Shown: piece by piece, positions 2,382-43,226 of the stretch | Layout: every line of letters begins with the position of its first letter | How positions within the stretch are numbered: the stretch's first letter is position 1 | Source: a bacterium | GTDB lineage: Bacteria > Hydrothermota > UBA3072 > JAPDKE01 | Reading direction: 5' to 3' | Assembly (NCBI GenBank): GCA_029258725.1 | Contig: JAPDKE010000018.1 | Span: 1-64,000 of the forward strand | DNA: 64,000 nucleotides | Position numbers and translations under genes: made by a program | The notes under the pieces: generated by a model | Seen by the model: only the letters and a program-made list of their open reading frames with translations | The model's database searches: none | What the model was told of the DNA's origin: nothing

Positions 2382-3739
2382 TATTTCCCCTCTCTCCGGA
2401 AGCAACCATAAGAAGACTTCCTCTTGTAACCATCACCATAATAATCTTCACCACCATTATTTTTGCCTTTACATATCCCCGCATGATAGAAGAAGAGAGG
2501 GAGTATATAAACGCATACCGTGAACTCCTTGAGTATGAAACCTGGATATTCTCCTCCTACATAGTCAACGAGGATGGGCACATCGTTGAAAGGTTTGAAA
2601 AGGTGAGGGAAAAAGCAGAAAAAGGCGAGATAGAACTTCCACCACCTTACAAGGAGAAATGGGAGATTTTGAAGGAAAGGGTGAAAACCATAGAGGAAAA
2701 CATGCTTATAAGAAGATGGGGATTCATCCCATCGCATATAACACTCAGGGGCATGCTTCTTTCCCTCCTGCTTCACGCAGGGTTTTTACATCTCTTCTTC
2801 AACCTTTACTTTCTCTGGCTCGTTGGATGCAACATTGAAGATGACTGGGGAAGACCCCTTTTTCTTGCTCTTTATGTTCTTTCAGGCATCGTCGCATGCC
2901 TTTTCCATGCCCTTTTCAATCGGACCTCCTCCGTTCCCGTGATAGGCGCATCGGGTGCGGTTTCCGGCATAATGGGAGCTTTTACCATCAGACACTGGAA
3001 CACAAAAATCAGGTTCTTTGTGGGAGGCATTGCGTTTTTCAGGCCTTTGGGAACTGTTGTAAGAATCCCGGCATGGATTGCATTTTCAGGATGGTTCATA
3101 AAGCAGGTGATGGGGGCATTTGGTGGGGAGGGAGGGGTTGCATTTTTTGCACATATAGGTGGATTTCTGTTTGGCGCTCTTGCAGGAATCCTGATGAAGG
3201 TAACAAAGACCGAGGAAAAGGTGCTTGCCCCCAGGATAGAGGAGGAAATAGACCTCGTTCCATACCGGTTCAGGCAGGCGATGGAGGAACTTGAAAAGGG
3301 GAATAGAATTGAGTTTGAAAGAAAAATGAAAAAATTTCTTGAAGAAAATCCATTCTATCCTGATGGATGGAGGGTTCTTGCGGAGTATTACCGGGAAAGG
3401 GGAAATACAGTGGAGCTTGAAAAACTCGCAAAAGAGATTCTCTCAAGGGCAAGGATGGAAAATAAAAAAGATTTCCTGAGGGAGGTGTATCCATTCTTAA
3501 AAGAAGAGTTCTCCTCCCTTCCACCATCGGATGTTATCTATATTGCAGATGTCCTCTGGGAAAAGGAAAGAAGGGAGACAATAGAGTTCCTTGAAAGAAG
3601 TTACAAAAAATGTAAAATGGACAGGAAGGTTCTTATCCTTTTAAAACTCATAAAGAGGATGAAAGAGGAAGGGATGGATGTGAGTGCATATCTTGAAGAA
3701 CTTGAGGAAAAATTTCCCTCCTACCGGGGGTATGTATGA
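2372..3739 (+). CDS. rhomboid intramembrane protease with C-terminal helical-repeat domain
   Basis: 455 aa. The first transmembrane helix (about 18-36) is followed by an unusual soluble insertion of about 80 residues. The rhomboid core then spans about 120-290: H-A-G-F-L-H-L-F-F-N-L in the L1 loop region, the Ser motif I-G-A-S-G-A-V-S-G, and the catalytic His in F-A-H-I-G-G. Ser and His are both present, so it should be active and cut transmembrane helices. Residues 290-455 are charged helices resembling TPR-like repeats, probably cytoplasmic. It overlaps M24 (10 nt) and ispG (4 nt). Confidence 0.9.
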   Translation: MLVIFPLSPEATIRRLPLVTITIIIFTTIIFAFTYPRMIEEEREYINAYRELLEYETWIFSSYIVNEDGHIVERFEKVREKAEKGEIELPPPYKEKWEILKERVKTIEENMLIRRWGFIPSHITLRGMLLSLLLHAGFLHLFFNLYFLWLVGCNIEDDWGRPLFLALYVLSGIVACLFHALFNRTSSVPVIGASGAVSGIMGAFTIRHWNTKIRFFVGGIAFFRPLGTVVRIPAWIAFSGWFIKQVMGAFGGEGGVAFFAHIGGFLFGALAGILMKVTKTEEKVLAPRIEEEIDLVPYRFRQAMEELEKGNRIEFERKMKKFLEENPFYPDGWRVLAEYYRERGNTVELEKLAKEILSRARMENKKDFLREVYPFLKEEFSSLPPSDVIYIADVLWEKERRETIEFLERSYKKCKMDRKVLILLKLIKRMKEEGMDVSAYLEELEEKFPSYRGYV

Positions 3740-4794
3740 GAAAGAAGGTGAGAATAGGGAAAATATGGATAGGTGGGGGTGAACCTGTTGCAATTCAGTC
3801 CATGACAAAGTGCAGGACAGAGGATACCGATAGGCTTCTTGAAGAGATAAGAAAGCTTGAAAGGGAAGGATGTGAGATTGTGAGAGTGGCTGTTCCAACG
3901 GATGAGGCAGCGCAATCCCTGAGGAAGATAAGAAATAAAATAAAACTCCCTCTTGTTGCGGACATTCACTACGACTGGAGGCTTGCACTCAGGGCGGTGG
4001 AGGCAGGGGTGGATAAGATAAGGATAAATCCGGGGAATATAAAGGAAAGAGGAAAAATCAAGGAGATTGTTAAGGTATGCATGGAAAGGGAAATTGCAAT
4101 GAGGATTGGTGTGAACACAGGCTCACTTCATCCTGAGTTTGAAAAGAAATACGGGAGAGGGGTTGAGGCACTGGTTGAGAGTGCCGTTTACTACGTGAAA
4201 CTCGTGGAGGATATGGGATTTACCTCCATGGTTGTCTCTGTGAAATCCTCAGATCCTGTGGAGAATGTTATTGCAAATAGATTGCTTCACCAAAGAATAC
4301 CCTATCCTCTTCACATAGGTGTTACAGAGGCGGGTCCCCCATCATGGGGAGTGCTTGCATCCGGTGCAGGTGTGGGATGCCTCCTCATGGATGGGATAGG
4401 GGATACGATAAGAATATCCCTCACCGCCCCATCGGTGGAGGAGGTGAGGGTTGCAAAAAGACTTCTGACGTTGCTTGGCATAAGGAAACTCGGACCCGTT
4501 CTTGTTTCATGCCCCACATGTGGAAGGCTTGAGATTGACCTTTTCAGGGTTGTAAGAGAGGTGGAGAAAAAACTTGAAAGGATAAAAATTCCCGTAAAGG
4601 TTGCGGTTATGGGATGCAGTGTCAATGGCCCCGGAGAGGCAAAGGATGCGGATGTTGGGCTTGCAGGGGGAAAAAAAAGGGCTGTTATCTTCAGGAAAGG
4701 AGAGATAGTAAGAATCGTGGATGAGGATAAAATGGTGGATGAACTCATGAAGGAAATAAAAAGAATGGAGGTGGAGTATGATGAAGGTGGATAA
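3736..4794 (+). CDS. ispG: 4-hydroxy-3-methylbut-2-enyl diphosphate synthase
   Basis: 352 aa, the normal length of short-form IspG (GcpE). It reduces MEcPP to HMBPP in the MEP isoprenoid pathway. The TIM-barrel part begins V-A-I-Q-S-M-T and contains V-A-D-I-H-Y-D and R-I-N-P-G-N. The C-terminal 4Fe-4S domain has S-C-P-T-C-G-R and G-C-S-V-N-G-P-G-E-A, supplying three Cys and one Glu. The next MEP enzyme, ispH, is also in this window (51.1 kb). It starts in ATGA overlap with the rhomboid gene. Confidence 0.97.
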   Translation: MRKKVRIGKIWIGGGEPVAIQSMTKCRTEDTDRLLEEIRKLEREGCEIVRVAVPTDEAAQSLRKIRNKIKLPLVADIHYDWRLALRAVEAGVDKIRINPGNIKERGKIKEIVKVCMEREIAMRIGVNTGSLHPEFEKKYGRGVEALVESAVYYVKLVEDMGFTSMVVSVKSSDPVENVIANRLLHQRIPYPLHIGVTEAGPPSWGVLASGAGVGCLLMDGIGDTIRISLTAPSVEEVRVAKRLLTLLGIRKLGPVLVSCPTCGRLEIDLFRVVREVEKKLERIKIPVKVAVMGCSVNGPGEAKDADVGLAGGKKRAVIFRKGEIVRIVDEDKMVDELMKEIKRMEVEYDEGG

Positions 4795-5029
4795 GGAAAA
4801 GAAAAAGGTGTGGATTTATACCCAGCACTACAGGATAAACGGGAACCTTCATGTTTTAAGGGGTTCAAGACTTTCAGACATGCTTGCTGCAACCTCCCAG
4901 AAAAGCGATTTTATTCCGGTTACCGAATGCACGGTTTACAATGAGAAGGGTGACAAACTCTTTGAGGTTCCCTTTCTCTCCCTGAACCGCAGGTTCATTG
5001 TGATGATATTTGAGGAGGTAACCTCGTGA
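4778..5029 (+). CDS. conserved small protein of unknown function, 83 aa
   Basis: Starts inside the end of ispG at one of two adjacent ATGs, behind a GGAGGTGGAG ribosome site. It has no signal or membrane segment. The sequence suggests a small beta-sheet protein: K-V-W-I-Y-T-Q-H-Y-R-I-N-G, R-L-S-D-M-L, then F-I-P-V-T-E-C-T-V-Y and F-L-S-L-N-R-R-F-I-V-M-I. The R-L-S-D-x-L ... F-I-P-V-T pattern recalls small uncharacterised bacterial proteins of the DUF6812 sort, which I cannot confirm. Tight overlap on both sides argues it is expressed. Confidence 0.75.
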   Translation: MMKVDKEKKKVWIYTQHYRINGNLHVLRGSRLSDMLAATSQKSDFIPVTECTVYNEKGDKLFEVPFLSLNRRFIVMIFEEVTS

Positions 5030-6252
5030 GGGTTGGAATCATAGGAGGAGGACCTGCAGGATACAGTGCAGCATTGCTCGGGGCAAAAAAAGGATGGGAT
5101 GTAACACTTTTTGAGAGAAAAGATATAGGTGGGACATGCCTCAATCGGGGATGCATACCTACAAAATCCCTGATTAACTCAGCACTTCATGGGCTGCCAT
5201 TTGAGGAGGCAAAAAAGAGAAAGGAACTTGCAAAGAGAAGGCTCGTTCTCGGAGTTGAAAGACTTCTCCAGAAGGCAGGGGTTAAGGTTATAGGAAAGGA
5301 GGCAAGACTTGAGGAAAGAAAAATTATAACGGATGATGAAGTTTACGAATTTGACAGAATCCTCGTTGCAACGGGTTCTGTTCCTTCATTTCCTCCGATA
5401 GAAGGGAAGGAAAACGCAAAAACAAGCGAGGATGCACTTGAACTTCACACCCTTCCAGAAAGGGTCATAATCATAGGAGGAGGTGTGATAGGGCTTGAGT
5501 TTGCCTTTGTCCTTTCATCTTTCGGGAGTGAGGTTCATGTTGTTGAGATAATGGAGGAGGTTCTCCCGGGAACAGACCCTGAGTGTGCGTCTGTTGTAAG
5601 AAAAGAACTTGAAAAGAAGGGGATAAGGTTTTACCTGAGGAAAAGGGTTGAAAGGATAGAGGAAAAGAAAATCTACGGTGAGGTTGAACTTGAAGGAGAC
5701 GCTGTTTTCTTATTCACGGGAAGGAAACCCTGTCTTGAAAACCTGCCCCCTGAAATAAGGAATGAGAATGGGGTAAAGGTGGATGAATATCTGGAAACCC
5801 CTATCCCTGGTGTTTTTGCAGCGGGGGACTGCACTGGTCAGTTCATGCTTGCCCATTATGCATATCATCAGGCAGAGGTGGCTGTGGAGAACATGGAGGA
5901 GAAGAGAGTGAGGTGCAGGAGAAATGCGGTTCCCGGAACGGTATTCACCCATCCTGAGTATGCATGGGCAGGGGAGATGGAGGGAGAGAGTGTAAAGGTT
6001 CCATTCTCTGCAAATGGAAGGGCAATAGCAGAGGGAGATACGGCGGGGTTCGTGAAACTCTTTTATAAGGAGGGGAGGGTTACGGGAATTCACATCGTTG
6101 GAGGAAGGGCTTCGGAACTGATTTTCTCCGCAACCTTTATGCTCGGAAAAAAACTTGAGGAACTCAGGTGGTCCATTCCTCCCCACCCGACCAACTCAGA
6201 ACTTTTAAAGGAGGCAGTTCTTGCTGCCCTTGGAACCTCAATCCATTGTTGA
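5026..6252 (+). CDS. dihydrolipoyl dehydrogenase-like flavoprotein disulfide reductase
   Basis: 408 aa, GTG start in GTGA overlap with the previous stop. N-terminal FAD motif G-G-G-P-A-G; redox disulfide G-G-T-C-L-N-R-G-C-I-P-T-K; central NAD motif I-I-G-G-G-V-I-G-L-E; second FAD motif F-A-A-G-D-C-T-G; C-terminal His-Glu pair in P-H-P-T-N-S-E. All catalytic elements of lipoamide dehydrogenase are present, but it is shorter than the usual 450-470 residues, chiefly around residues 60-75. No E1/E2 genes are adjacent. The neighbour is an Fe-S protein, so the partner may not be a 2-oxo-acid complex. Confidence 0.88.
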   Translation: MRVGIIGGGPAGYSAALLGAKKGWDVTLFERKDIGGTCLNRGCIPTKSLINSALHGLPFEEAKKRKELAKRRLVLGVERLLQKAGVKVIGKEARLEERKIITDDEVYEFDRILVATGSVPSFPPIEGKENAKTSEDALELHTLPERVIIIGGGVIGLEFAFVLSSFGSEVHVVEIMEEVLPGTDPECASVVRKELEKKGIRFYLRKRVERIEEKKIYGEVELEGDAVFLFTGRKPCLENLPPEIRNENGVKVDEYLETPIPGVFAAGDCTGQFMLAHYAYHQAEVAVENMEEKRVRCRRNAVPGTVFTHPEYAWAGEMEGESVKVPFSANGRAIAEGDTAGFVKLFYKEGRVTGIHIVGGRASELIFSATFMLGKKLEELRWSIPPHPTNSELLKEAVLAALGTSIHC

Positions 6253-12737: not shown

Positions 12738-13126
12738 AACCGAGGTATAAACCCACCCGTGAATTCCCTGTGATCTCCATGGCGGATATTGTGCTTCTTC
12801 TTCTTATATTCTTCCTCCTCTCCTCAACCTACCTGGTCCAGCCGGGAATAAGGGTGAAACTTCCCCGGACAAGGACAAAGGAAACCGTGTCGCAGGAAAG
12901 AATTGTGGTAACCCTGACAGAAGAAGGGGCTCTTTATCTTGAAGATACACCGGTGAGCCTTGAGGATTTACCCTTTTTGCTCAGAGAAAAGGATGTGGAA
13001 AACAGGGTTGTGGTTCTGAAGGCAGACAGGAATGTCTCCCTTGAGATGGCGGTTAAGGTGCTTGACCGGATAAGAGAGGGTGGAGGAAAGAACTTCGTGA
13101 TAGCAACCATACCTGGTTCAGAATGA
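12728..13126 (+). CDS. exbD: ExbD/TolR biopolymer transport protein
   Basis: 132 aa from the ATG at 12728 (AGGGAG eight bases before); a GTG nine bases earlier is an alternative. A short cytoplasmic tail leads to one transmembrane helix (I-S-M-A-D-I-V-L-L-L-L-I-F-F-L-L) containing the conserved protonatable Asp. A periplasmic domain follows. It works with ExbB to couple proton motive force to TonB. It overlaps exbB by 10 nt and tonB by 4 nt. Confidence 0.93.
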   Translation: MEVKPRYKPTREFPVISMADIVLLLLIFFLLSSTYLVQPGIRVKLPRTRTKETVSQERIVVTLTEEGALYLEDTPVSLEDLPFLLREKDVENRVVVLKADRNVSLEMAVKVLDRIREGGGKNFVIATIPGSE

Positions 13127-13677
13127 AGGCAAAGCCCTTTCTTTCCACCCTGATCCTGTACTCCTTCCTTCTCTTTGTCTTCCATCTCATTCGCTTTCCT
13201 TTATTCCATCCATCCCCCTCCATAATTACCCTTTTCATCCCATCCGGTGAGGCAGCAGCCTATCAGGGCGGTGGAGAGGGAGAAGGGGAGATACCGGAGA
13301 GCAAAGGAGATTATGCATTGCCCCTTCCACCTGTTAAAAAGGAAAAGGGTAAAATAAAGAGACCTCTTCCCCCACTTCCCGGAATGAAGGGGGAAGGCAA
13401 GAAAAAGGGTTATGAAATAACAGGTCCCCTTGCAAAAAGAAGACTTATAAGGCTTGTTCTTCCTGAATATCCAGAGGGAGAGATGGGAAGGTCCGTGGTG
13501 AGGATAAGAATAGTTGTGGATAAAAACGGTATGGTGAAGAAACTTGAGCTTGTGAAGACCGGGGGAGCTGCATTTGACAGGGCTGCAATGGAGGCGATAA
13601 GGGAGTGGAGGTTTGAACCATCCAGGGAAGAGAAGGATGTTGAGGGGGTTGTAACCATATTCTTTGAGGTGAGATGA
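13123..13677 (+). CDS. tonB: TonB energy transducer
   Basis: 184 aa. The N-terminal membrane anchor (about 5-25) is followed by a Gly/Glu-rich then Pro/Lys-rich linker (about 40-95, for example P-L-P-P-V-K-K-E-K-G-K-I-K-R-P). The C-terminal TonB fold is at about 100-184 (L-P-E-Y-P-E-G; V-V-D-K-N-G-M-V-K-K-L; A-A-M-E-A-I-R-E-W-R-F-E-P). It spans the periplasm and powers outer-membrane receptors, so the cell should have two membranes. No TonB-dependent receptor lies nearby. Confidence 0.93.
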   Translation: MKAKPFLSTLILYSFLLFVFHLIRFPLFHPSPSIITLFIPSGEAAAYQGGGEGEGEIPESKGDYALPLPPVKKEKGKIKRPLPPLPGMKGEGKKKGYEITGPLAKRRLIRLVLPEYPEGEMGRSVVRIRIVVDKNGMVKKLELVKTGGAAFDRAAMEAIREWRFEPSREEKDVEGVVTIFFEVR

Positions 13678-35015: not shown

Positions 35016-36980
35016 TTACATTGAAAAATTCGTTCTTATTTTTATCATTATTTTATCATATGTCTCAATAAATTTAGAATTTTCTATATTATATTCCTTT
35101 CCCAGACAGATATAAAAACCTGTTAGATATCTCGGTTCAAAAATAAAAACAGCATTAAATAAAAGATTTTTTTTAGGCTTGCCTTCAATTTTGTTTATAT
35201 TATCAACTTTATATAAAATATACGGTTTAAAGATGAAATTTCTATGAAAATTCAACTCTCCATAATTTTCAAACACTATTAGACTATCATATAACGAATT
35301 AATTAAATTAAAAGAGAAGCCAAGATTAAAAATTTTGCAAAAAGAAAAACGAAGGTCTACAAAGTAGTTTCTTAATTTACTCCCAAGGTAATTACCAAAA
35401 TTGTAATTTATAATCATCCTATTCCAGGATGACAAAAAGTATCCAATAGAAGTTGAATAAGTGAAAGAGCTTGTATTTTCAAACCCCAAATCTTTTAAAT
35501 AATACATGCCATCAAAAGAAGCGCCTATATTAGAAAATAATATAATGGGAAATTTTGTTGTCTGCAAATACACAAAAAAACCGTAGTTTTTATATATATT
35601 TTCAGAATTAAATTTGTTTTGGATAAAATTGTAAATAAAAGAAGGCATGAATGTATAAGAACTTTTATCATATCGGTAATGTAAAAAAGATTGTACTTGT
35701 TTAATTCCCTCAAAATCTATAAGTATATAATTAAAAGGGGAAATAATAAAACTATCTATAGAAGTATAACTTACACCAAGAGAAAGACCAGGCTTTTCAT
35801 ATCTTTCAAACGCTACATAATATAAGTTTTTATTATTATCGAGCCTTTTTGAAGCTTGCAAAGAAAAACTTAATTTTAGTTTCTCATAGTAATTTATGAA
35901 ATCCATTGATGAGAGATTATATCCAATTTCGCTATTCATCAAATAAAATCCAATTTTTGTTGAAGAAAAAGGATTATATGTTGTCCTTATAATTGTTGCA
36001 TTTCCAAGAGAAGCATCGTTTATGAAGAGTGAGATAAGAGATACTTTCTCTGTGGCTGTAAAGAACTTCACACCCCATAACGGTTTTTCAAAATTTCTTG
36101 TTCTTAAAAGAGGGAATGGCATTGAGAGATAATTTGAGCCCTCGGTAAAAAATATTCTTTTCTCAGGATAATCTATTGGAAGCCTCCTTAAGTCAAATTT
36201 AAACATATCTACATCCACCTCTGAAAAATCAGGATGGTATGTTATATCTAAAACTGATTTTGAACCCTGTTTAAATCTTATCGTCCCCCCCCAAGTAAAC
36301 TTGTTAGTTTTATCCTCCTGGGAAAATCTAACACTTGGCATTACATAAAAATTGAAATTTTTATCCTTTTTTATGTAATTAAAATCCAATTTCATTTCGG
36401 CTATATCCTCAATGTAATTCAAACTTGTTGTGGGGAATAAAAACTGCATTTCTCCCTTCTTTGAAATTACTCTACATATTTGTATTCCCCATACGACTTC
36501 TCCATAATTTAATGCATTAAAAGGAATTATAAGAAGTGCTGACCATCCATATTCTGTTTCTTCTGTAAGTGCCTTAACATTGCCATCCCATTCAGTTTCT
36601 CCGAAGATTGAAATCATCTTATCATAGATTGCGCCAAGTGGGTTTACTGCAATATAATACACATCATTTCCTTTCCCATACGGCGCAATTATTATTGCTA
36701 TATTATCTTCTTGGCCCTTAACCATTGCAACAGCGTCTCTTCTTCGTGAATTTGCAGATATACCCTTCTGATAATTTTTTGAGTACACAATGAGCTCCGT
36801 AGGTGTATATGCTATATAAACTATTGAAGAATCAGAGGGATTTTCTTGTAATTTTGGCATCACTGTAGTCAATTTGTATCCAGGCGATTCCTCAACAATT
36901 TTATAGATATCTTCAATATCTTTTATCTTTACGGCATGGATAGATAAAGCTAACATGAACAGAGGCATGAAGCAAGACAT
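35016..36980 (-). CDS. DUF5916-type outer-membrane beta-barrel protein
   Basis: 654 aa, signal peptide at 1-16. The N-terminal third (about 17-185) is a CBM9-like beta domain (A-Y-T-P-T-E-L-I-V-Y; W-S-A-L-L-I-I-P-F). The family hallmark follows (about 245-285): P-D-F-S-E-V-D-V-D and P-E-K-R-I-F-F-T-E-G. The remainder alternates aromatic and polar residues as in a beta-barrel and ends N-F-S-M. Members are predicted outer-membrane proteins of unknown function. It is last in the lanthipeptide operon, 13 nt after the ABC gene, with a GGAGG site. I infer a role in export, immunity or reception of the peptide. Confidence 0.85.
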   Translation of the reverse strand: MSCFMPLFMLALSIHAVKIKDIEDIYKIVEESPGYKLTTVMPKLQENPSDSSIVYIAYTPTELIVYSKNYQKGISANSRRRDAVAMVKGQEDNIAIIIAPYGKGNDVYYIAVNPLGAIYDKMISIFGETEWDGNVKALTEETEYGWSALLIIPFNALNYGEVVWGIQICRVISKKGEMQFLFPTTSLNYIEDIAEMKLDFNYIKKDKNFNFYVMPSVRFSQEDKTNKFTWGGTIRFKQGSKSVLDITYHPDFSEVDVDMFKFDLRRLPIDYPEKRIFFTEGSNYLSMPFPLLRTRNFEKPLWGVKFFTATEKVSLISLFINDASLGNATIIRTTYNPFSSTKIGFYLMNSEIGYNLSSMDFINYYEKLKLSFSLQASKRLDNNKNLYYVAFERYEKPGLSLGVSYTSIDSFIISPFNYILIDFEGIKQVQSFLHYRYDKSSYTFMPSFIYNFIQNKFNSENIYKNYGFFVYLQTTKFPIILFSNIGASFDGMYYLKDLGFENTSSFTYSTSIGYFLSSWNRMIINYNFGNYLGSKLRNYFVDLRFSFCKIFNLGFSFNLINSLYDSLIVFENYGELNFHRNFIFKPYILYKVDNINKIEGKPKKNLLFNAVFIFEPRYLTGFYICLGKEYNIENSKFIETYDKIMIKIRTNFSM

Positions 36981-36993
36981 CGGGCTCCTCCTT

Positions 36994-38526
36994 TCATCTT
37001 AATCTTATGATTTCATCAAAGCAAGCATGAAACTTCTCTCCTCCATGCATAACAACCACTAAGGATTTTCCCTTTGTTTCAGAAAGTATTACATTCATCA
37101 CATCTTCTTTACTCCCTTCATCAATGTTGCTTAAGGGCTCATCAAAAAAGTACACTTCGGCCTGTTTAAGGAGTGTCCTTATAATACAAAATTTCTTTTT
37201 TTCTCCTTCTGATAGTTCAAAGGGGGTTTTCTCTAATTTATTATCAAGACCAAATTTTTCAATAAGTGTTAAAAACTTCCTCTTGTTATTTTCGCTCAAG
37301 ACATTAAAATCCACATTGTCTTTCAATGATCCGGGGATAAACTCCATTGGCATTATCATTGCACTTATATTTTTTAAGTCTGTGAGCTTATAATGTCCCT
37401 CTGGCTCTAAAAATCCGCACATAATATTTAAAAGGGTTGTCTTACCAGAACCATTGGGCCCGGTTATCAAGATTTTCTCCCCCCCTTTTATAGAAAGTGA
37501 GAAATTTTTTATTACGGATCTCTCAGGAAAGCTATAGTTTATCTTATCCAATACTATCTCTTTACCTTCCCAGGATTTTTCTTTTTCTTGGAAAGATTCA
37601 AACTCCTTTAATCTATTTAAATATCCTTTAAGACTCATTAAACGTGGAAAATTCTCAATCAGGCTGGTTATCCCACTTACTCCCCTCCAGAATGCCTGCA
37701 TATATCCAAATAATCCGCCTATGGTTAAAAACCCTAGTATAACACCTATGCCCAATCCAATCAAAACAAAAAATTCCATCAATGACATAAACAGGTCATT
37801 TAATGTTCCATATAGCTTCGTAAATTTTATCTTACTATACAATGCATTTAAGAATCTATCTAAGGCATTGTGAACTTTTTTAAATGATATATCATAAAGA
37901 TTGAAAAGTTTCACAGTTCTATAAGAAGAAACAAGGGTTATTATCTTTTCTCTCAAATTTGCTTCCTTTTCTTTTTCTTGTTCAGAAAATGAGGAAACCT
38001 TTGTGCCAAATTTCCTTGCTAACATATAAATAACCGGGATAATAACCACAAAAATGCAGGTCATTTTCCAAGAAAAATATAATATCAGCGCCAAGGACGT
38101 TATTGCAATAATAAGCGAGCTTAATAAATCGCTTGCCGTATCAATTGCTAAAGAACATAAATTATTTGATTCGTCGTATATCCTAGATGCAAAATACCCA
38201 CTGTTTTTTGAAAGAACAATTTTATAAGGGAAATTGAAATAATATTTTAAAGTCTCCATCGTGAGTTCTTTCAAGATAATGTTTTTCAATCTCTGTATTA
38301 AAAGTGAACTGAAATAATTAATTAAACGCAGGACGCCTCCAAAGAAAATAACAAAAATTCCCAAAAAGATAAAAAATCTTAGATTTTTTCCTAAAATACC
38401 TTTATCAATCAAGAATTTCATAGCCATTGGATCAATAAAAGTTGCGGAAAAATTTATAAAAATAAGAAGCATAGCCAAAAATAATACGAACAATCGATGT
38501 TTCTTTATGATTTTATAAAATATCAT
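36994..38526 (-). CDS. half-size ABC exporter of the lanthipeptide operon
   Basis: 510 aa. Transmembrane domain with about six helices (1-300), then an ATPase domain (about 325-510). Walker A is G-P-N-G-S-G-K-T-T, the signature is L-S-E-G-E-K-K-K-F (variant of LSGGQ), Walker B is V-Y-F-F-D-E-P-L-S-N, and the switch His is in V-V-M-H-G-G. There is no N-terminal C39 peptidase, so it does not trim the leader itself. As a homodimer it would export the modified peptide. Its start lies inside the end of the LanKC gene (14-nt overlap) behind GGGGAGG. Confidence 0.92.
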   Translation of the reverse strand: MIFYKIIKKHRLFVLFLAMLLIFINFSATFIDPMAMKFLIDKGILGKNLRFFIFLGIFVIFFGGVLRLINYFSSLLIQRLKNIILKELTMETLKYYFNFPYKIVLSKNSGYFASRIYDESNNLCSLAIDTASDLLSSLIIAITSLALILYFSWKMTCIFVVIIPVIYMLARKFGTKVSSFSEQEKEKEANLREKIITLVSSYRTVKLFNLYDISFKKVHNALDRFLNALYSKIKFTKLYGTLNDLFMSLMEFFVLIGLGIGVILGFLTIGGLFGYMQAFWRGVSGITSLIENFPRLMSLKGYLNRLKEFESFQEKEKSWEGKEIVLDKINYSFPERSVIKNFSLSIKGGEKILITGPNGSGKTTLLNIMCGFLEPEGHYKLTDLKNISAMIMPMEFIPGSLKDNVDFNVLSENNKRKFLTLIEKFGLDNKLEKTPFELSEGEKKKFCIIRTLLKQAEVYFFDEPLSNIDEGSKEDVMNVILSETKGKSLVVVMHGGEKFHACFDEIIRLR

Positions 38527-41179
38527 AGAAAAACCTCCCCTTTTTCCCTTTTTTTATTAAACGTTCAAAAAAAAGACCTATCCCAGAGGAACCGGTCCCG
38601 TAGTCTGTAGAAATCCTTCCAAGATTTTCCCCAGGGAAGGTTAAACCACTTTCTCTTTTTATACCAAACAGCATAATTCTTCTTGCCACCCAATGGGCTT
38701 CCCTAAGATATTTTTCTTCATCTGTATAAGTAAACATATCCAGGAAGAATTCTCCTATACCTGCCATTCCCATATAAAGTGACGGAGAAATCGAATATTT
38801 TTTTCTTAGATATTCTGCCGCCATCTCAGCCATTTTTTTATAATTTTTTTCTCCGGTTAAATTATAAAACCTTATCAATACGCTTCCGATTCCCGCATTT
38901 CCAAAACGGAAGTAAGGGAGCAATATATTACTTCCTCTATATTTGGACCAGCATATATATTTTTTTCTTTTTATACTATGTGAAATCTCAAAATGAATCA
39001 ATTTTTCAGCAAAACTTAGGAATTTATCATCTTTTGTTTTTGAATACAATCTTAAAAGGAAATAAGCTAATCCAGAAGCACCATGCATAAACCCAAAATA
39101 CACTATGCCATCGGTATTCTCAAAAAAGCATCCATATTTATCTTCTTTTATATTTTTCAGAATATAATAGCCCGCTTCTTGTGCCTTTTCTAAAAATTTT
39201 GTATCCCCTGTTTTTTTGTAAAAGTAAAGAGAAGCCAGTCCACAGCCACAAATACCATAGAAAAGATCAAGACTTTTTAAATAGAGTGGAGATTTATAGC
39301 ATATCTCCATAGCTTTCAAACCAATATCTTTTTGTCCTATCTCATATAATCCAATTGCCACCCCTGCAAGTCCTACTCCTAATCCTGGGGGATAGTTATT
39401 TATGCTAATATTCTCAAACTGCTTTTTTATCCATTCTACTATATTCTTTGGAATTTCGTTATTAATTTCTTTAAGAAATAAACAATTTCCCAATGCGCCA
39501 TATGAGATATTTAGTGGATTTGTTACAAAAATTCTTGGGTCAGATGGAAATAATCTGTCTTTTCTTTGACAAGAAATATTATTTTTTATATATTCTGCAA
39601 TAGAATGAGTAGTTTTTTTCAAAAAATTAATTGAAATTTTATTCTCTTTCTTTTTTCTTTTGTTCCTCAAAATTCGCACATTTTTTATCTTTTTAATTAT
39701 TTCTTTATAAGATTCGGGATTTTTATTTTTTGAAATTAAAAATATTAGATTTTCTATGTCTTGAGGCAATTCTTTGTCTTTTAATATATACGATAGAAAT
39801 TTTCTTTTATTATTTGAGGAGAGCATAAAAAGTTGTTGGATGGGAAATATAAGATTGTAGAGAATATTGCTAACGGCAAAATAATCATCTTTAAAAGTGG
39901 GTTTCTTTAAGTAGTTCTTTTTCTTCCTAACAAAGCCCATCGTTCCAATAGGCATATATGGAAGTCCTTTAACATATGCTCCTTCCAGATCGATTATTTT
40001 AATCGATCTGTCTTTTGGATTATAAATCACATTGTTTGGTGATAGATCTGCGCAAATTATACCATGATCATGCAGTGTTTTCACTGCTTTTATCAAATTT
40101 TCTGAAATTATAGCAAATGTTTCACAAAATTTTTTCCTCGTCTTTTCGTTTAAGTTTGTTTGCAACATAATATTAAATTCTTCTAATGCTCTGTATTCAG
40201 ATAGCGTAAATCCTGGAAGAAATTCAAGAACCAAGAAGTAATGTTCCCATTCTTTAAAAATTTCTATTGCCTTTGGGACATAGGGACATCCTTCTATTTT
40301 TTTAAGTATCTCATATTCTTTTATAAGCAAGCTTACTTCGTCAATTTTAAATTGATCAGTTTTTCCTATAAACGGTCTCCTTTCTTTTATTATAACTTTC
40401 TTTTTTGTTTTTATATCCATAGCTTTATAAACACCCCCAGCGTTTGTGGAAATTATCGGGGAAAGTACTTCATATTTATTATTTAGAATTATTCTTTTGG
40501 GAAAATCTAATCTTTGGGCAAAAGGATCCCTTACCCAAGAGGGCAATTTATAAAAAGGAGTTCGTATATCTTCAACAAACTTACCTTCAGGAGAAATAAT
40601 CCCTGGAATTTTTTCTCCATATACATTCAGCATAAAAATTTTTTTAAATCCTCCGTATCTATAAAAGACCACCCTAGAATCTTTGTAAGGCATATCCGAA
40701 AGAATGAATGGTCCTTCAAAGTTTTTAAGCGATTGGTATAGTTTTTCACATATCCTTTTAAAGAGTTCTATATTTGATGGATAAATTGTAATAAATTTAC
40801 CTGAAGATTCTCTCCCATAATTTCTTGAATTAATAATCTCTAATAGGATTCTGTCTTTAACAACTTTGAAAGCCGTATTTTCCTTAAAGCATACAAGAGC
40901 TGTTTTTCTTAAAATTGCAGAAGCATTAGTAGGTGTGGATGAAATATGTATTTTGAAACCTTGATTCGGTATCTCGGTCTTTTTAGGAAAAAAGTAGTAC
41001 CAGATATCCTCTTCTATTACTCCCCAATCCTGCGGAACAAAGGACTCTATTTCATTCCGGTAATTGTGGTTTTTCGGAATATAATTGCTTAAAGTTTCGT
41101 AGAATTCAGGGGAAACCATCATAAATAACATTTCATCTTCAATCCCCAATCTGCGATCGATATTACCCTTCTTATTCAT
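38513..41179 (-). CDS. class III lanthipeptide synthetase (LanKC)
   Basis: 888 aa in three domains. The N-terminal phosphothreonine-lyase-like domain (about 1-220) has N-Q-G-F-K-I-H-I-S-S-T-P, S-G-K-F-I-T-I-Y-P, P-F-I-L-S-D and F-Y-R-Y-G-G-F. The Ser/Thr kinase (about 235-500) has G-G-V-Y-K-A, I-I-K-E, the catalytic loop C-A-D-L-S-P-N-N-V-I-Y and I-I-D-L-E-G-A. The LanC-like cyclase (about 555-888) has G-F-M-H-G-A-S-G-L-A, but the zinc positions read F-R-F-G-N-A-G and L-Y-M-G-M-A-G. With no Cys/Cys-His ligands it is class III, not class IV. It phosphorylates Ser/Thr, eliminates phosphate and forms lanthionine or labionin. Confidence 0.95.
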   Translation of the reverse strand: MNKKGNIDRRLGIEDEMLFMMVSPEFYETLSNYIPKNHNYRNEIESFVPQDWGVIEEDIWYYFFPKKTEIPNQGFKIHISSTPTNASAILRKTALVCFKENTAFKVVKDRILLEIINSRNYGRESSGKFITIYPSNIELFKRICEKLYQSLKNFEGPFILSDMPYKDSRVVFYRYGGFKKIFMLNVYGEKIPGIISPEGKFVEDIRTPFYKLPSWVRDPFAQRLDFPKRIILNNKYEVLSPIISTNAGGVYKAMDIKTKKKVIIKERRPFIGKTDQFKIDEVSLLIKEYEILKKIEGCPYVPKAIEIFKEWEHYFLVLEFLPGFTLSEYRALEEFNIMLQTNLNEKTRKKFCETFAIISENLIKAVKTLHDHGIICADLSPNNVIYNPKDRSIKIIDLEGAYVKGLPYMPIGTMGFVRKKKNYLKKPTFKDDYFAVSNILYNLIFPIQQLFMLSSNNKRKFLSYILKDKELPQDIENLIFLISKNKNPESYKEIIKKIKNVRILRNKRKKKENKISINFLKKTTHSIAEYIKNNISCQRKDRLFPSDPRIFVTNPLNISYGALGNCLFLKEINNEIPKNIVEWIKKQFENISINNYPPGLGVGLAGVAIGLYEIGQKDIGLKAMEICYKSPLYLKSLDLFYGICGCGLASLYFYKKTGDTKFLEKAQEAGYYILKNIKEDKYGCFFENTDGIVYFGFMHGASGLAYFLLRLYSKTKDDKFLSFAEKLIHFEISHSIKRKKYICWSKYRGSNILLPYFRFGNAGIGSVLIRFYNLTGEKNYKKMAEMAAEYLRKKYSISPSLYMGMAGIGEFFLDMFTYTDEEKYLREAHWVARRIMLFGIKRESGLTFPGENLGRISTDYGTGSSGIGLFFERLIKKGKKGRFFYDIL

Positions 41180-41183
41180 TCTG

Positions 41184-41206
41184 CCTCCTTTTTCCTTACG
41201 GTTTGT
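41184..41206 (-). repeat. repeated ribosome-site module before the LanKC gene
   Basis: Minus strand reads CAAACCG, a purine run, then AAAGGAGG just ahead of the LanKC ATG. The same arrangement occurs before the precursor gene (41366-41387). Confidence 0.5.
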
Positions 41207-41218
41207 TCAAGGAAATAA

Positions 41219-41245
41219 GTGAGGGAGCTAAAATAGCCCCCTCAC
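41219..41245 (-). terminator. strong hairpin between precursor and LanKC genes (attenuator)
   Basis: A 12-bp inverted repeat, GTGAGGGGGCTA paired with TAGCTCCCTCAC (one G-U), with a 3-nt loop. It begins 10 nt after the precursor stop. It is followed on the minus strand by TTATTTCC, not a full T-run, so partial termination or an mRNA-stabilising end is more likely than a complete stop. This would keep peptide mRNA in excess over enzyme mRNA. Confidence 0.8.
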
Positions 41246-41255
41246 GTTTAACGAC

Positions 41256-41360
41256 TCATCGATTGCAAGTGATACAGCCAACGCTGATAGTTGAAGAAAT
41301 AGGCCTGTTGGAGGACACGGTTTCCTTTTTCAAAGTTTGCAAAGCTAAAACCTTAACCAT
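41256..41360 (-). CDS. class III lanthipeptide precursor peptide, 34 aa
   Basis: ATG at 41360, TGA at 41258-41256, ribosome site AGGAGG five bases upstream. Residues 1-13 read M-V-K-V-L-A-L-Q-T-L-K-K-E. The V-L-A-L-Q-T-L part fits the hydrophobic L-x-L-Q leader motif recognised by class III synthetases. Residues 14-34 hold eight Ser/Thr and two Cys. S23-T-I-S26-V-G-C29 is an exact S-x2-S-x2-C labionin/lanthionine motif, and a second Cys (C32) sits in I-T-C-N-R at the end. The leader is short for the class. It lies directly upstream of LanKC under a sigma-54 promoter. The final ring pattern and cleavage site are unknown. Confidence 0.9.
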   Translation of the reverse strand: MVKVLALQTLKKETVSSNRPISSTISVGCITCNR

Positions 41361-41365
41361 AATAA

Positions 41366-41387
41366 CCTCCTTTCTTTTTCGGTTTGC
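41366..41387 (-). repeat. repeated ribosome-site module before the precursor gene
   Basis: CAAACCG followed by a purine run and GAAAGGAGG, matching the module before LanKC. Possibly a shared translation enhancer or the trace of a local duplication. Confidence 0.5.
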
Positions 41388-41480
41388 TTTTAACCTTTTC
41401 CCCTAGATAACCTTTCTGTTTTTCGCTGTCGCTTCATAGAGGCCACCCCTCATTTGGATACCCGAACCACACCCTTTTTA

Positions 41481-41499
41481 AATGCAATTTTCGTGCCAA
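41481..41499 (-). promoter_or_regulatory. sigma-54 (-24/-12) promoter of the lanthipeptide operon
   Basis: Minus strand TTGGCACGAAAATTGCA: the -24 GG (41497-41496) and -12 GC (41485-41484) are ten bases apart, and every conserved position of TTGGCACG-N4-TTGC is matched. Transcription should begin near 41472, leaving a leader of about 110 nt before the precursor ATG. Such promoters are silent without an AAA+ activator, and one is encoded just upstream. Confidence 0.93.
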
Positions 41500-41560
41500 T
41501 TTTTATAAACTTTTAGAGCGTTATCAATCAATGGGAACTTAAAATTTCTAAAATCTTATA

Positions 41561-41579
41561 CTGACAACAAGGTTGGCTA
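41561..41579 (-). promoter_or_regulatory. activator site 1 (imperfect)
   Basis: CTGACAAC-AAG-GTTGGCTA, an imperfect copy of the perfect palindrome at 41667. Centre about 74 bp upstream of the -24 element. Confidence 0.65.
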
Positions 41580-41645
41580 CTATTTCTTAATTTTTATGGG
41601 GAAAAATTTTGTTGAAAGCTTTGCAATCCTTATTTTTTTCATCAG

Positions 41646-41664
41646 ATGTCAATAAGGTTGATAG
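41646..41664 (-). promoter_or_regulatory. activator site 2 (imperfect)
   Basis: ATGTCAAT-AAG-GTTGATAG. It shares the AAG spacer and GTTG half-site with the other copies, and its centre is 21 bp (two helical turns) from site 3. Confidence 0.6.
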
Positions 41665-41666
41665 CA

Positions 41667-41685
41667 TTGACAACAAGGTTGTCAA
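41667..41685 (-). promoter_or_regulatory. activator site 3 (perfect palindrome)
   Basis: TTGACAAC-AAG-GTTGTCAA: 8-bp half-sites are exact reverse complements around a 3-bp spacer. Together with sites 1 and 2 it forms the expected upstream enhancer for a sigma-54 activator with a Fis-type HTH. It begins 11 nt after the stop codon of that activator's gene. Confidence 0.8.
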
Positions 41686-41696
41686 TCATTCTATTT

Positions 41697-42938
41697 TTAT
41701 TCCATTTTCAGAGATTTCAACATTTTTATCAATCCCCATCTTGATATTCCCAGTTCTTTTGCTGCCCTTGTCTTGTTTCCTTTGTGTTTTTCAAGCGCCT
41801 TCCTTATCTCTTTCTTCTTTAATACCTCTATCTTTTCTGAAAGTGTTCTCGGTATCTTCTCTTCCGGTTTTCTCATCTTCTCTGGAAGGTCCTCTATTCC
41901 TATGATTTTATCCTTTGATCCCTCCTTCATCATTATTAAAAATTCAATTACTCTCTCAAGCTCTCTTACATTGCCAGGCCAAGAATAAGATCTCAATGCT
42001 TCCATTGCTTCTTTTGAAAAGATTATATCTCCCTTATGTTTCTCAAGAAAGTATGTGATAAATTCATCAAAATATTCTATCCTCTCTCTTAAAGGGGGTA
42101 ACCATATCTCCACCCCCGTTATTCTATAATATAAATCCTCTCTAAATGCCTTTTTATTCACGAGTTCCTTCAAATCAGCATTTGTAGCACATACGAGTTT
42201 AAAATCCACTTTCTTTCCTTTTATAGCACCTACCCTCCATATTTCTCTATCCTCTATCACTCTTAACAACTTTCCCTGTAATTCAAGGGGCATATCGCCT
42301 ATCTCATCAAGAAAAACAGTCCCATTATCCGCTATCTCGAACTTTCCAGGCCTTCCCTTCTTATCTGCCCCGGTAAACGCTCCAGGCTCATAACCGAACA
42401 ATTCTGCTTCTGCAAGATCTCTTGGTATAGATGTACAATTCACAGGCACAAAATTACCACTTCTTCCTGCCTCTTTATGTATCGCTCTCGCAAGAACCTC
42501 CTTGCCCACCCCACTTTCTCCATGAATAAGCACAGGAACGTTACTTCTTGCCCCGATTCTTGCAAGTTTTTTTACTTCTTCTGGTATTCCCGGAATTTCA
42601 TCAATAGAATAATCGAAAGGAAGGTCCGTTACCAGTCTTTTGGGTGGTTTTTCTCTTCTAAAGCATAAAATATACCCTTCTTCAATCGGTATACTTTGAA
42701 AAATAAAGTAATTACGAAAGTTTCCTTTTTCCCAAACTACTTCTATTTCCTCCTGCTCCGTCTTCCACGCCTCTTTCGGAAGTAAAGTCCCTACCTCATT
42801 TATGCACTTCCCTTCAGCATTTTTCAATCCCAAGTGATTCTCTGCCTCCACAGAACAATCAATCACTTTTCCACCTTTATCAATCACAATAAAGAATATC
42901 CCTACATTTTCCAAGATTATCTTTTCATATCCCCTCAT
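41697..42938 (-). CDS. sigma-54-dependent activator (PAS-AAA+-HTH) controlling the lanthipeptide operon
   Basis: 413 aa. PAS-like sensor about 1-95 (F-F-I-V-I-D-K-G-G-K-V-I-D-C). AAA+ domain about 110-340: Walker A G-E-S-G-V-G-K-E, sigma-54 contact loop G-A-F-T-G-A, Walker B V-F-L-D-E-I-G-D, arginine-finger region F-R-E-D-L-Y-Y-R. C-terminal Fis-type HTH: N-K-T-R-A-A-K-E-L-G-I-S-R-W-G-L. There is no receiver domain, so activity is probably set by a ligand or redox state at the PAS domain or by the small upstream protein. Good GGAGG site before the ATG. Confidence 0.95.
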   Translation of the reverse strand: MRGYEKIILENVGIFFIVIDKGGKVIDCSVEAENHLGLKNAEGKCINEVGTLLPKEAWKTEQEEIEVVWEKGNFRNYFIFQSIPIEEGYILCFRREKPPKRLVTDLPFDYSIDEIPGIPEEVKKLARIGARSNVPVLIHGESGVGKEVLARAIHKEAGRSGNFVPVNCTSIPRDLAEAELFGYEPGAFTGADKKGRPGKFEIADNGTVFLDEIGDMPLELQGKLLRVIEDREIWRVGAIKGKKVDFKLVCATNADLKELVNKKAFREDLYYRITGVEIWLPPLRERIEYFDEFITYFLEKHKGDIIFSKEAMEALRSYSWPGNVRELERVIEFLIMMKEGSKDKIIGIEDLPEKMRKPEEKIPRTLSEKIEVLKKKEIRKALEKHKGNKTRAAKELGISRWGLIKMLKSLKME

Positions 42939-43191
42939 CGTACACCTCCGTCCCTTTATGTTGATTTTCTTCCTTCTCTTTTCGTGCTCTTCTTACTGTA
43001 GGGAGATAAGAATAGCTCCGTCTTCCCACTATTTCCTTTAATAAATAAGCAATAGCCTCTAAATCACCTTTCGTCAATATAAGCAGTATTTCCCCTTTAT
43101 CTCCCACCCCTCCACCTTTCAAAAATTTCTCCACCTTATTCAACGCCTCCTCAACGGAGGTAAACGCAAATCTTAACTCCCTGTAATTCAC
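42925..43191 (-). CDS. small protein upstream of the activator, 88 aa, unknown
   Basis: GTG start fixed by a promoter six bases upstream; its last 14 nt overlap the activator gene. N-terminal helix (T-S-V-E-E-A-L-N-K-V-E-K-F-L-K-G-G-G), a beta strand (G-E-I-L-L-I-L-T-K-G-D), a second helix (A-I-A-Y-L-L-K-E-I-V-G), then a very charged tail. No membrane segment. I recognise no family. Strict coupling to the activator gene suggests that it modulates the activator. Confidence 0.75.
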   Translation of the reverse strand: MNYRELRFAFTSVEEALNKVEKFLKGGGVGDKGEILLILTKGDLEAIAYLLKEIVGRRSYSYLPTVRRARKEKEENQHKGTEVYDEGI

Positions 43192-43197
43192 GAGAAA

Positions 43198-43226
43198 AGA
43201 ATAGCAAAAATAAATGCTTGTGTCAA
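43198..43226 (-). promoter_or_regulatory. sigma-70 promoter of the activator operon, leaderless geometry
   Basis: On the minus strand: -35 TTGACA (43226-43221), 17-nt spacer, -10 TATTCT (43203-43198), six bases (TTTCTC), then the GTG start at 43191. Confidence 0.75.

Follow-up and report, generated by a model that had tools for sequence, protein, structure and literature searches.

A predicted class III lanthipeptide locus with a sigma-54 promoter and an outer-membrane barrel gene in candidate phylum WOR-3

How does a cell with two membranes release a modified peptide, and what switches its synthesis on? The exit of such peptides is poorly worked out beyond TolC-type routes. We investigated a predicted class III lanthipeptide locus that raises both questions, at positions 35016-43191 (minus strand) of a 64,000-nucleotide (nt) window, by which we mean the whole stretch of DNA analysed. 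The window belongs to a 2.11-Mb draft genome (95% complete) placed in candidate phylum WOR-3 (Caldifarciminota), from which we know of no isolates. An initial annotation had proposed an inducible ribosomal-peptide system with its own outer-membrane step; the gene set, an activator, a promoter and an outer-membrane protein support this in part, and we consider it probable that the locus encodes an inducible class III lanthipeptide pathway on a reusable chassis, such a step included. At the level of sequence, we regard as established the gene set, the promoter, conservation of the activator, the promoter and the spacing of its sites in a second WOR-3 family and an association of barrel genes with peptide maturases.

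A class III cassette and its predicted sigma-54 switch

P0006, an open reading frame (ORF) with no family match in Pfam or NCBIfam, and P0005 are transcribed first, followed by a 517-nt interval upstream of P0002 that houses the control sites and the P0001 precursor gene, and then by P0002, P0003 and P0004 (Table 1). The one-strand layout of overlapping or closely spaced genes given in the initial annotation proved right when its coordinates were checked (the P0003 gene overlaps the P0002 gene by 14 nt, and P0004 starts 13 nt past the P0003 stop), while the label ‘complete’ was overstated: the cassette has no visible leader protease, a trait that it shares with actinobacterial class III clusters as described in PMC7268733.

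P0002 had been described as a three-domain LanKC without zinc ligands, and our searches bore this out. RamC_N, Pkinase and LANC_like all scored over their Pfam cut-offs in this single protein, which also matched the class III LanKC equivalog NF038151 (693 bits; cut-off 575) and whose best solved-structure relatives carry class III LanKC names (8sao, E 1e-77). A class IV LanL identity was rejected (NF038150, 490.5 bits; cut-off 650). A motif search of the whole protein found neither CHG nor C[YWFH]G, and the stretches presumed to correspond to the zinc motifs read RFGNAG and MGMAG. The 34-amino-acid (aa) precursor likewise stood, P0001 passing the NCBIfam model lanthi_III_a narrowly while falling below cut-off with lanthi_III_b and lanthi_III_c. 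A LanKC over cut-off, an LxLQ-type leader, an SxxSx(n)C core and an ATP-binding cassette (ABC) exporter are all shared with class III systems such as SapB, labyrinthopeptin and catenulipeptin.

The exporter, P0003, carries the Pfam domains ABC_membrane and ABC_tran, in agreement with the half-size exporter first proposed, and no peptidase domain was among the 21 Pfam families listed in its search. For P0004, the proposed ‘DUF5916 outer-membrane barrel’ held in a modified form. DUF5916 (PF19313) did not match P0004 itself at E 0.1 or 0.01, so the name is not a family match of this protein; P0004 is instead a divergent relative by way of its alignment (A5), in which 13 of 17 members match DUF5916 (best E 4.4e-16) and a PEKR motif is invariant across all 17 proteins. 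An AlphaFold2 model of P0004 built with 17 rows (predicted local distance difference test (pLDDT) 85.5, predicted template-modelling score 0.81) places a CBM9-like domain at residues 12-202 (Z 17.8, 2.8 Å over 170 residues) and, from residue 209, a large barrel resembling those of ushers, LptD, AlgE, porins and TonB receptors, with no clear best. We do not assign it to the PapC/FimD, LptD or AlgE type, Z values of 13-17 being spread across many barrel families.

Upstream of the precursor gene, TGGCACGAAAATTGCA is the sole match with no mismatch to the sigma-54 pattern in 64 kb. With one mismatch allowed there are 4 matches against 1.26 expected, and at least 4 arose in 2 of 100 shuffles. Three TGWCAAYAAGGTTG sites (at 41562, 41647 and 41668) are the only window matches with up to one mismatch, against 0.10 expected for a pattern that was derived from the very sites on which it was then counted. 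P0005 matches Sigma54_activat (206 bits) and a Fis-type helix-turn-helix (HTH) in Pfam, with GAFTGA at residue 186, and the window genome has rpoN (175.6 bits). The sequence marks of a sigma-54 unit are therefore together in this locus, namely a -24/-12 promoter, rpoN, a GAFTGA activator and repeated upstream sites, and the consensus promoter and enhancer-like sites of the initial annotation are confirmed as one perfect promoter and three repeats, one of them palindromic. Its PAS-AAA+-HTH activator operon holds for the AAA+ part with GAFTGA and the Fis-type HTH; Pfam calls no PAS domain in P0005 and, because the structure model came out poor (mean pLDDT 56), PAS is one reading of an N-terminus that is only consistent with it. 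Set against the class III systems known, the window differs in its sigma-54 promoter, its local activator, the barrel within the cassette and its uncultured diderm host.

Table 1 Features of the locus in window coordinates, in order of transcription
Feature	Position	Strand	Basis
P0006, 88-aa ORF, GTG start, overlapping the P0005 gene by 14 nt	42925..43191	-	
P0005, sigma-54 activator, 413 aa: putative PAS-like N-terminus, AAA+ with GAFTGA, Fis-type HTH	41697..42938	-	
Candidate activator-binding site 3, palindrome ATTGACAACAAGGTTGTCAAT, 187 nt from promoter	41666..41686		Repeat pattern
Candidate activator-binding site 2, 164 nt from promoter	41647..41660		Repeat pattern
Candidate activator-binding site 1, 80 nt from promoter	41562..41575		Repeat pattern
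Sigma-54 (-24/-12) promoter TGGCACGAAAATTGCA	41483..41498	-	Pattern search; core kept in L036
P0001, 34-aa class III lanthipeptide precursor, leader MVKVLALQTL, core SSTISVGCITC (S-x2-S-x2-C)	41256..41360	-	Class III precursor model
Strong hairpin between P0001 and P0002 genes, possible attenuator or RNA-processing element	41219..41245	-	z -4.4
P0002, LanKC class III lanthionine synthetase, 888 aa: lyase, kinase, zinc-free cyclase	38513..41179	-	Pfam, NCBIfam
P0003, half-size MsbA-like ABC exporter, 510 aa	36994..38526	-	Pfam
P0004, outer-membrane barrel, N-terminal CBM9-like domain, 654 aa, divergent DUF5916 relative	35016..36980	-	Alignment and structure model

Elsewhere in the window, the ORF at 13123-13677 (+) encodes a TonB C-terminal domain (41.6 bits), one of four such matches in the genome.

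LanKC loci across WOR-3

Scanning 147 genomes of the window's phylum for LanKC, we found 8 with a gene that resembles it along most of its extent (G000, the window genome, and G002, G023, G031, G037, G041, G043 and G046). These represent the window's family and five others, with no further genome of its class. Matches at E 0.001 occurred in 56 genomes, and the 48 left out had only the kinase or cyclase part (best in G044, locus L039, 69 bits). The initial annotation expected the genes of the cassette to co-occur in relatives, and they do. An ABC exporter gene of the P0003 family adjoins LanKC at all eight loci (30-43% to P0003; 626-647 bits with a joint ABC model built from those same proteins), and an outer-membrane barrel gene lies on the same strand within 2.1 kb of LanKC in six. 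DUF5916-like barrels are found in the window, in L033, where the contig end truncates the gene, and in L036, where it lies upstream of the activator.

Each of the eight loci has 1-3 small ORFs, 12 in total, whose leader fits [VIL]LxLQ, 97-725 nt before LanKC. Ten of the 12 were scanned, of which 2 pass a class III cut-off, 1 is short of it by 0.1 bit, 6 match below it and 1, from L038, has no match. By eye, the cores read SxxSxxC in four loci and SxxSx4CC in two, and follow a less regular pattern in L037 and L038. Strong hairpins lie behind the precursor in the window, L032, L033, L034 and L036 (z -4.3 to -8.1); none was found in L037 or L038, and in L035 three closely spaced precursors leave no room for one.

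The predicted switch is kept in a distant relative. In G002, from another WOR-3 family, locus L036 encodes an activator 56% identical to P0005 over its length, its promoter core TTGGCACGAAAATTGC is identical to that of the window, and three related sites precede it at 183, 161 and 80 nt, compared with 187, 164 and 80 nt in the window. The site sequences differ between the two (for example, AACTTAGTT versus AACCTTGTT), and we interpret the comparison as the trace of an activator that is conserved while its specificity drifts. No counterpart of P0006 was matched in L036.

Two further observations concern this relative. Its LanKC (L036:5464-8146) appears as two overlapping ORFs split at the kinase/cyclase linker, through either a gene split or an assembly error, and LanKC is likewise in two ORFs in L055 (Caldilineaceae) and L082 (Corallococcus). 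G002, which also supplies locus L072, is labelled ‘Acetofilamentum sp.’ (Bacteroidota) at NCBI and assigned to the window's phylum in the genome collection; it is probably a mislabelled metagenome-assembled genome.

Another activator relative (52%) was found in G006, before two tandem small ORFs of another type, each with a sigma-54-like site TTGGTATCATTTTTGCA and an inverted repeat of its own. Its locus, L208 (G006:C81), is an entire 3.2-kb contig with no maturase, and its tandem ORFs begin MFEILF and show a CGC motif and hairpin-like repeats. rpoN was matched in 125 of the 147 genomes, G000, G002, G023, G031 and G046 among them, with no match in the LanKC genomes G037, G041 and G043. In G046, 2.4 kb before the LanKC of L034, a sensor-like ORF is paired at 3122-5516 with a response regulator of NtrC type that contains GAFTGA (38% to P0005). 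Sigma-54 wiring of this genome (L034/L047) was not counted, since, despite the nearby GAFTGA regulator, no strict promoter lies near LanKC.

Barrel genes beside radical SAM maturases

P0004-type barrels are found beside a second, unrelated peptide chemistry. Of the 15 closest P0004 relatives (window included), 9 stand directly behind an ABC exporter gene and 6 (L147, L148 and L150-L153) have no adjoining ABC gene. In five of these nine (L154-L158), a radical SAM/SPASM peptide maturase, an ABC exporter and a barrel follow one another in the gene order of the window. These five maturases score 235-255 bits with the nearest model, TIGR04463 (cut-off 525), and are thus not members of that family. 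WOR-3 cassettes of this kind resemble the LanKC locus in gene order (precursor, maturase, ABC exporter, then a P0004-family barrel), some with a sigma-54 site before the precursor, but differ in their unrelated maturase and precursors, several of which have CGC motifs. Tiny precursor-like ORFs with CGCFL motifs precede the maturase in four of the five. Those of L155, L156, L157 and L158 form a family of 29-37 aa beside a divergent maturase, possibly an undescribed WOR-3 family of ribosomally synthesized and post-translationally modified peptides (RiPPs).

With one of the L154-L158 maturases as query, a search at E 1e-30 gave 35 places, distributed over 21 of the 147 genomes; in those 21, the barrel model matched 74 places, some of them fragments. 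A barrel lies within 6 kb of 21 of the 35 maturases, always on the same strand, compared with 1.0 expected and a maximum of 9 in 200,000 simulations of uniform placement, a null that takes no account of operon structure or of where contigs end. A barrel adjoined the maturase used as query, and five barrels from these loci went into the barrel model; the count nevertheless takes in all 35 places. In a 33-locus subset, 17 of 28 radical SAM ORFs have a P0004-family barrel within 6.5 kb, 3 more have a TonB-type barrel and some of the remaining 8 are truncated at the end of the stretch. Eight loci were added later; of the seven maturase loci among them, 2 have a barrel. In one locus (L191:6694-7944, G046:C27), the radical SAM maturase is spread over three ORFs, and the neighbouring ABC and barrel genes look intact.

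The sigma-54 site recurs with these enzymes as well. Within the 900 nt upstream, 6 of 45 maturase ORFs (a set that includes the two halves of one split LanKC and the L039 fragment) have a -24/-12 site with no more than one mismatch, compared with 3 of 385 other ORFs (p 6e-5), and perfect sites occur in 3 of 45 compared with 0 of 385 in the same loci. Excluding the window and L036, which prompted the test, left 4 of 42 versus 3 of 385 (p 0.002); counting the L155/L156 pair once, and a shared control site once, gave 3 of 41 versus 2 of 384 (p 0.007). The six sites are 288-343 nt before the maturase and 68-138 nt ahead of a precursor ORF. Because 39 of the 45 maturase ORFs have no such site, the sigma-54 promoter recurs, but in a minority of cases. 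In L204 (G003), an activator-like gene, a two-mismatch site TTGGCATGATAATTGC, a small Cys-rich ORF, a maturase and an ABC gene occur together.

Proposed export and its rivals

On the basis of these observations, we propose that P0005 binds the three sites 80-187 nt upstream of the sigma-54 promoter and would thereby turn on the precursor gene. The hairpin behind that gene may limit read-through, which would yield more precursor than enzyme. LanKC would phosphorylate and eliminate core Ser/Thr residues and close at least one (methyl)lanthionine or labionin ring on S-x2-S-x2-C, and the leader would be removed by a protease encoded elsewhere. Transport over the inner membrane would fall to P0003, and P0004, with its CBM9-like domain and barrel, would serve the outer-membrane step, replacing a TolC route that is apparently absent from the window genome (no OEP/TolC match, PF02321, in the 95% complete draft). 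We infer that the direction through the barrel is export rather than re-uptake. That WOR-3 has a portable RiPP chassis, consisting of a sigma-54 switch, a swappable maturase (LanKC or radical SAM/SPASM), a peptidase-free ABC exporter and a CBM9-barrel exit, is a more tentative proposal, for which we judge the prospects to be a little short of even.

Several observations weigh against this pathway. The precursor clears its model only marginally (22.6 bits; cut-off 22), and neither Pfam nor NCBIfam gives a match for P0004 at E 0.1. A strict sigma-54 promoter is found in 2 of the 8 LanKC loci; the other six have none in the 900 nt before LanKC, three of these being in genomes with no rpoN match. 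L037 and L038, which belong to one genus, carry the ABC gene in divergent orientation and lack a barrel next to LanKC, and 14 of the 35 radical SAM maturases have no P0004-family barrel within 6 kb, partly owing to contig ends. TolC-family proteins are present in the other 7 of the 8 LanKC genomes, so the barrel is not explicable by a general lack of TolC, and the idea that WOR-3 lacks TolC was rejected. TonB is found in all eight genomes, and in L032, L034 and L035 the barrel behind the ABC gene is of the TonB-receptor type (all three pass the cut-offs of OMP_b-brl_3 and CarboxypepD_reg, and L035 alone that of Plug), a family known for import.

These last points lead to the rival that survives best, in which the barrel is a receptor and a metallophore-like or signalling peptide, exported by the ABC protein, is recaptured as siderophores are. 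The barrels of L032, L034 and L035 are as compatible with a receptor as with an exit, or more so, that of P0004 resembles TonB receptors too, and a paper on copper-binding ribosomal peptides mentions LanKC and class III lanthipeptides (PMC10206099). However, P0004 divides into a CBM9-like domain and a barrel, in which Pfam matches no plug, no inner-membrane importer gene is found from the activator to the barrel gene, and in the window the barrel gene directly follows that of the exporter. We consider recapture unlikely, although it merits attention.

A less probable alternative, to which we give little credence, is an ordinary class III cluster from myxobacteria-like donors, with sigma-54 control and barrel incidental. 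A single-sequence scan of named genomes with P0002 gave no relatives, and we used the best 80 of at least 578 LanKC relatives from an alignment-based scan, comparing 76 loci from other phyla (a neighbourhood scan with all ORFs finds LanKC in 80 of 80). Myxobacteria, Lysobacter and Rheinheimera are among the many other diderms with class III LanKC genes in the relatives listed. The diderm host of this class III system, present as the initial annotation stated, is thus not the surprise, and the novelty is the chassis rather than a class III LanKC in diderms. Most LanKCs have been reported from Actinobacteria and Firmicutes, according to PMC7268733.

In 17 of the 76 loci, the WOR-3 ABC model gives an ABC gene more than 300 bits. 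LanKC-ABC pairs from Arsukibacterium, Ferrimonas, Rheinheimera, Duganella, Janthinobacterium, Oxalobacteraceae, Stenotrophomonas and Sphingomonas have ABC genes scoring 403-474 bits and, unlike the window, show no barrel-model match and no GAFTGA activator. The same holds for all 76 loci with either barrel model, although these models, built from WOR-3 proteins, would not detect unrelated barrels, and some of the stretches are short or cut by contig ends. A barrel is accordingly not required for class III export everywhere, a further point against the pathway proposed here. Over the 80 loci, the strict sigma-54 pattern, which ends in A or T and so passes over the L036/L072 site, whose last letter is G, gave one match, inside the LanKC gene of L068. 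Luteibacter (L056, L058, L061, L067 and L076) was rejected as a sigma-54 precedent: its five NtrC-like regulators before LanKC lack GAFTGA and are therefore probably not sigma-54 partners.

In favour of a donor, the LanKC tree groups the window with Sorangium, Polyangium and Rheinheimera (Shimodaira-Hasegawa-like approximate likelihood ratio support 95) and places the other WOR-3 LanKCs elsewhere, with at least five changes of the WOR-3 label; a single WOR-3 clade was unsupported. The tree was made quickly, from 45 of the 81 LanKC rows: 36 actinobacterial rows were dropped, and LanKCs in two short ORFs were omitted apart from L072, whose ORFs were joined. It has long branches, including that of Rheinheimera, and rows of odd composition. 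Against a donor, the Sorangium and Polyangium loci (L040-L042) have neither activator nor barrel by these models, while another WOR-3 family has both. Being absent near the enzyme's nearest kin and present in that second family, activator and barrel go with the host phylum. LanKC thus seems to have entered WOR-3 more than once and, as its LanKCs are polyphyletic, different maturases appear to have been recruited to a single chassis for export and control.

That the barrel is an unrelated neighbour, present because DUF5916- and TonB-type barrels abound in the phylum, is very improbable: DUF5916-type barrels are indeed common, with 74 matches in 21 genomes, and 6 of 15 P0004 relatives have no ABC neighbour, but 21 of 35 maturases have a same-strand barrel where 1.0 was expected and 9 of the 15 relatives directly follow an exporter gene.

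In the literature, a parallel to the proposed export pathway is in Bacteroidales, where RiPP clusters BGC6-9 likewise have an outer-membrane protein gene with no fusion protein identified, and where the exporters (PCAT) differ in having a peptidase domain, with GG-like precursors (PMC10352776). A literature search without most subscription journals found no paper joining WOR-3 and lanthipeptides and none naming DUF5916 or TIGR04463, and passages from papers on WOR-3 biosynthetic gene clusters make no mention of this system.

WOR-3 repeatedly pairs two unrelated peptide chemistries with one barrel family, which suggests a testable function for DUF5916-like proteins, and the sigma-54 promoter with its conserved sites makes the on-switch of the pathway experimentally testable. 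If the portable chassis is real, it would represent two-component peptide export without a fusion protein or TolC and would give a branch of the DUF5916 superfamily its first function. Cassettes in which the maturase changes while exporter and barrel stay constant may also provide a handle for finding new peptides in uncultured genomes.

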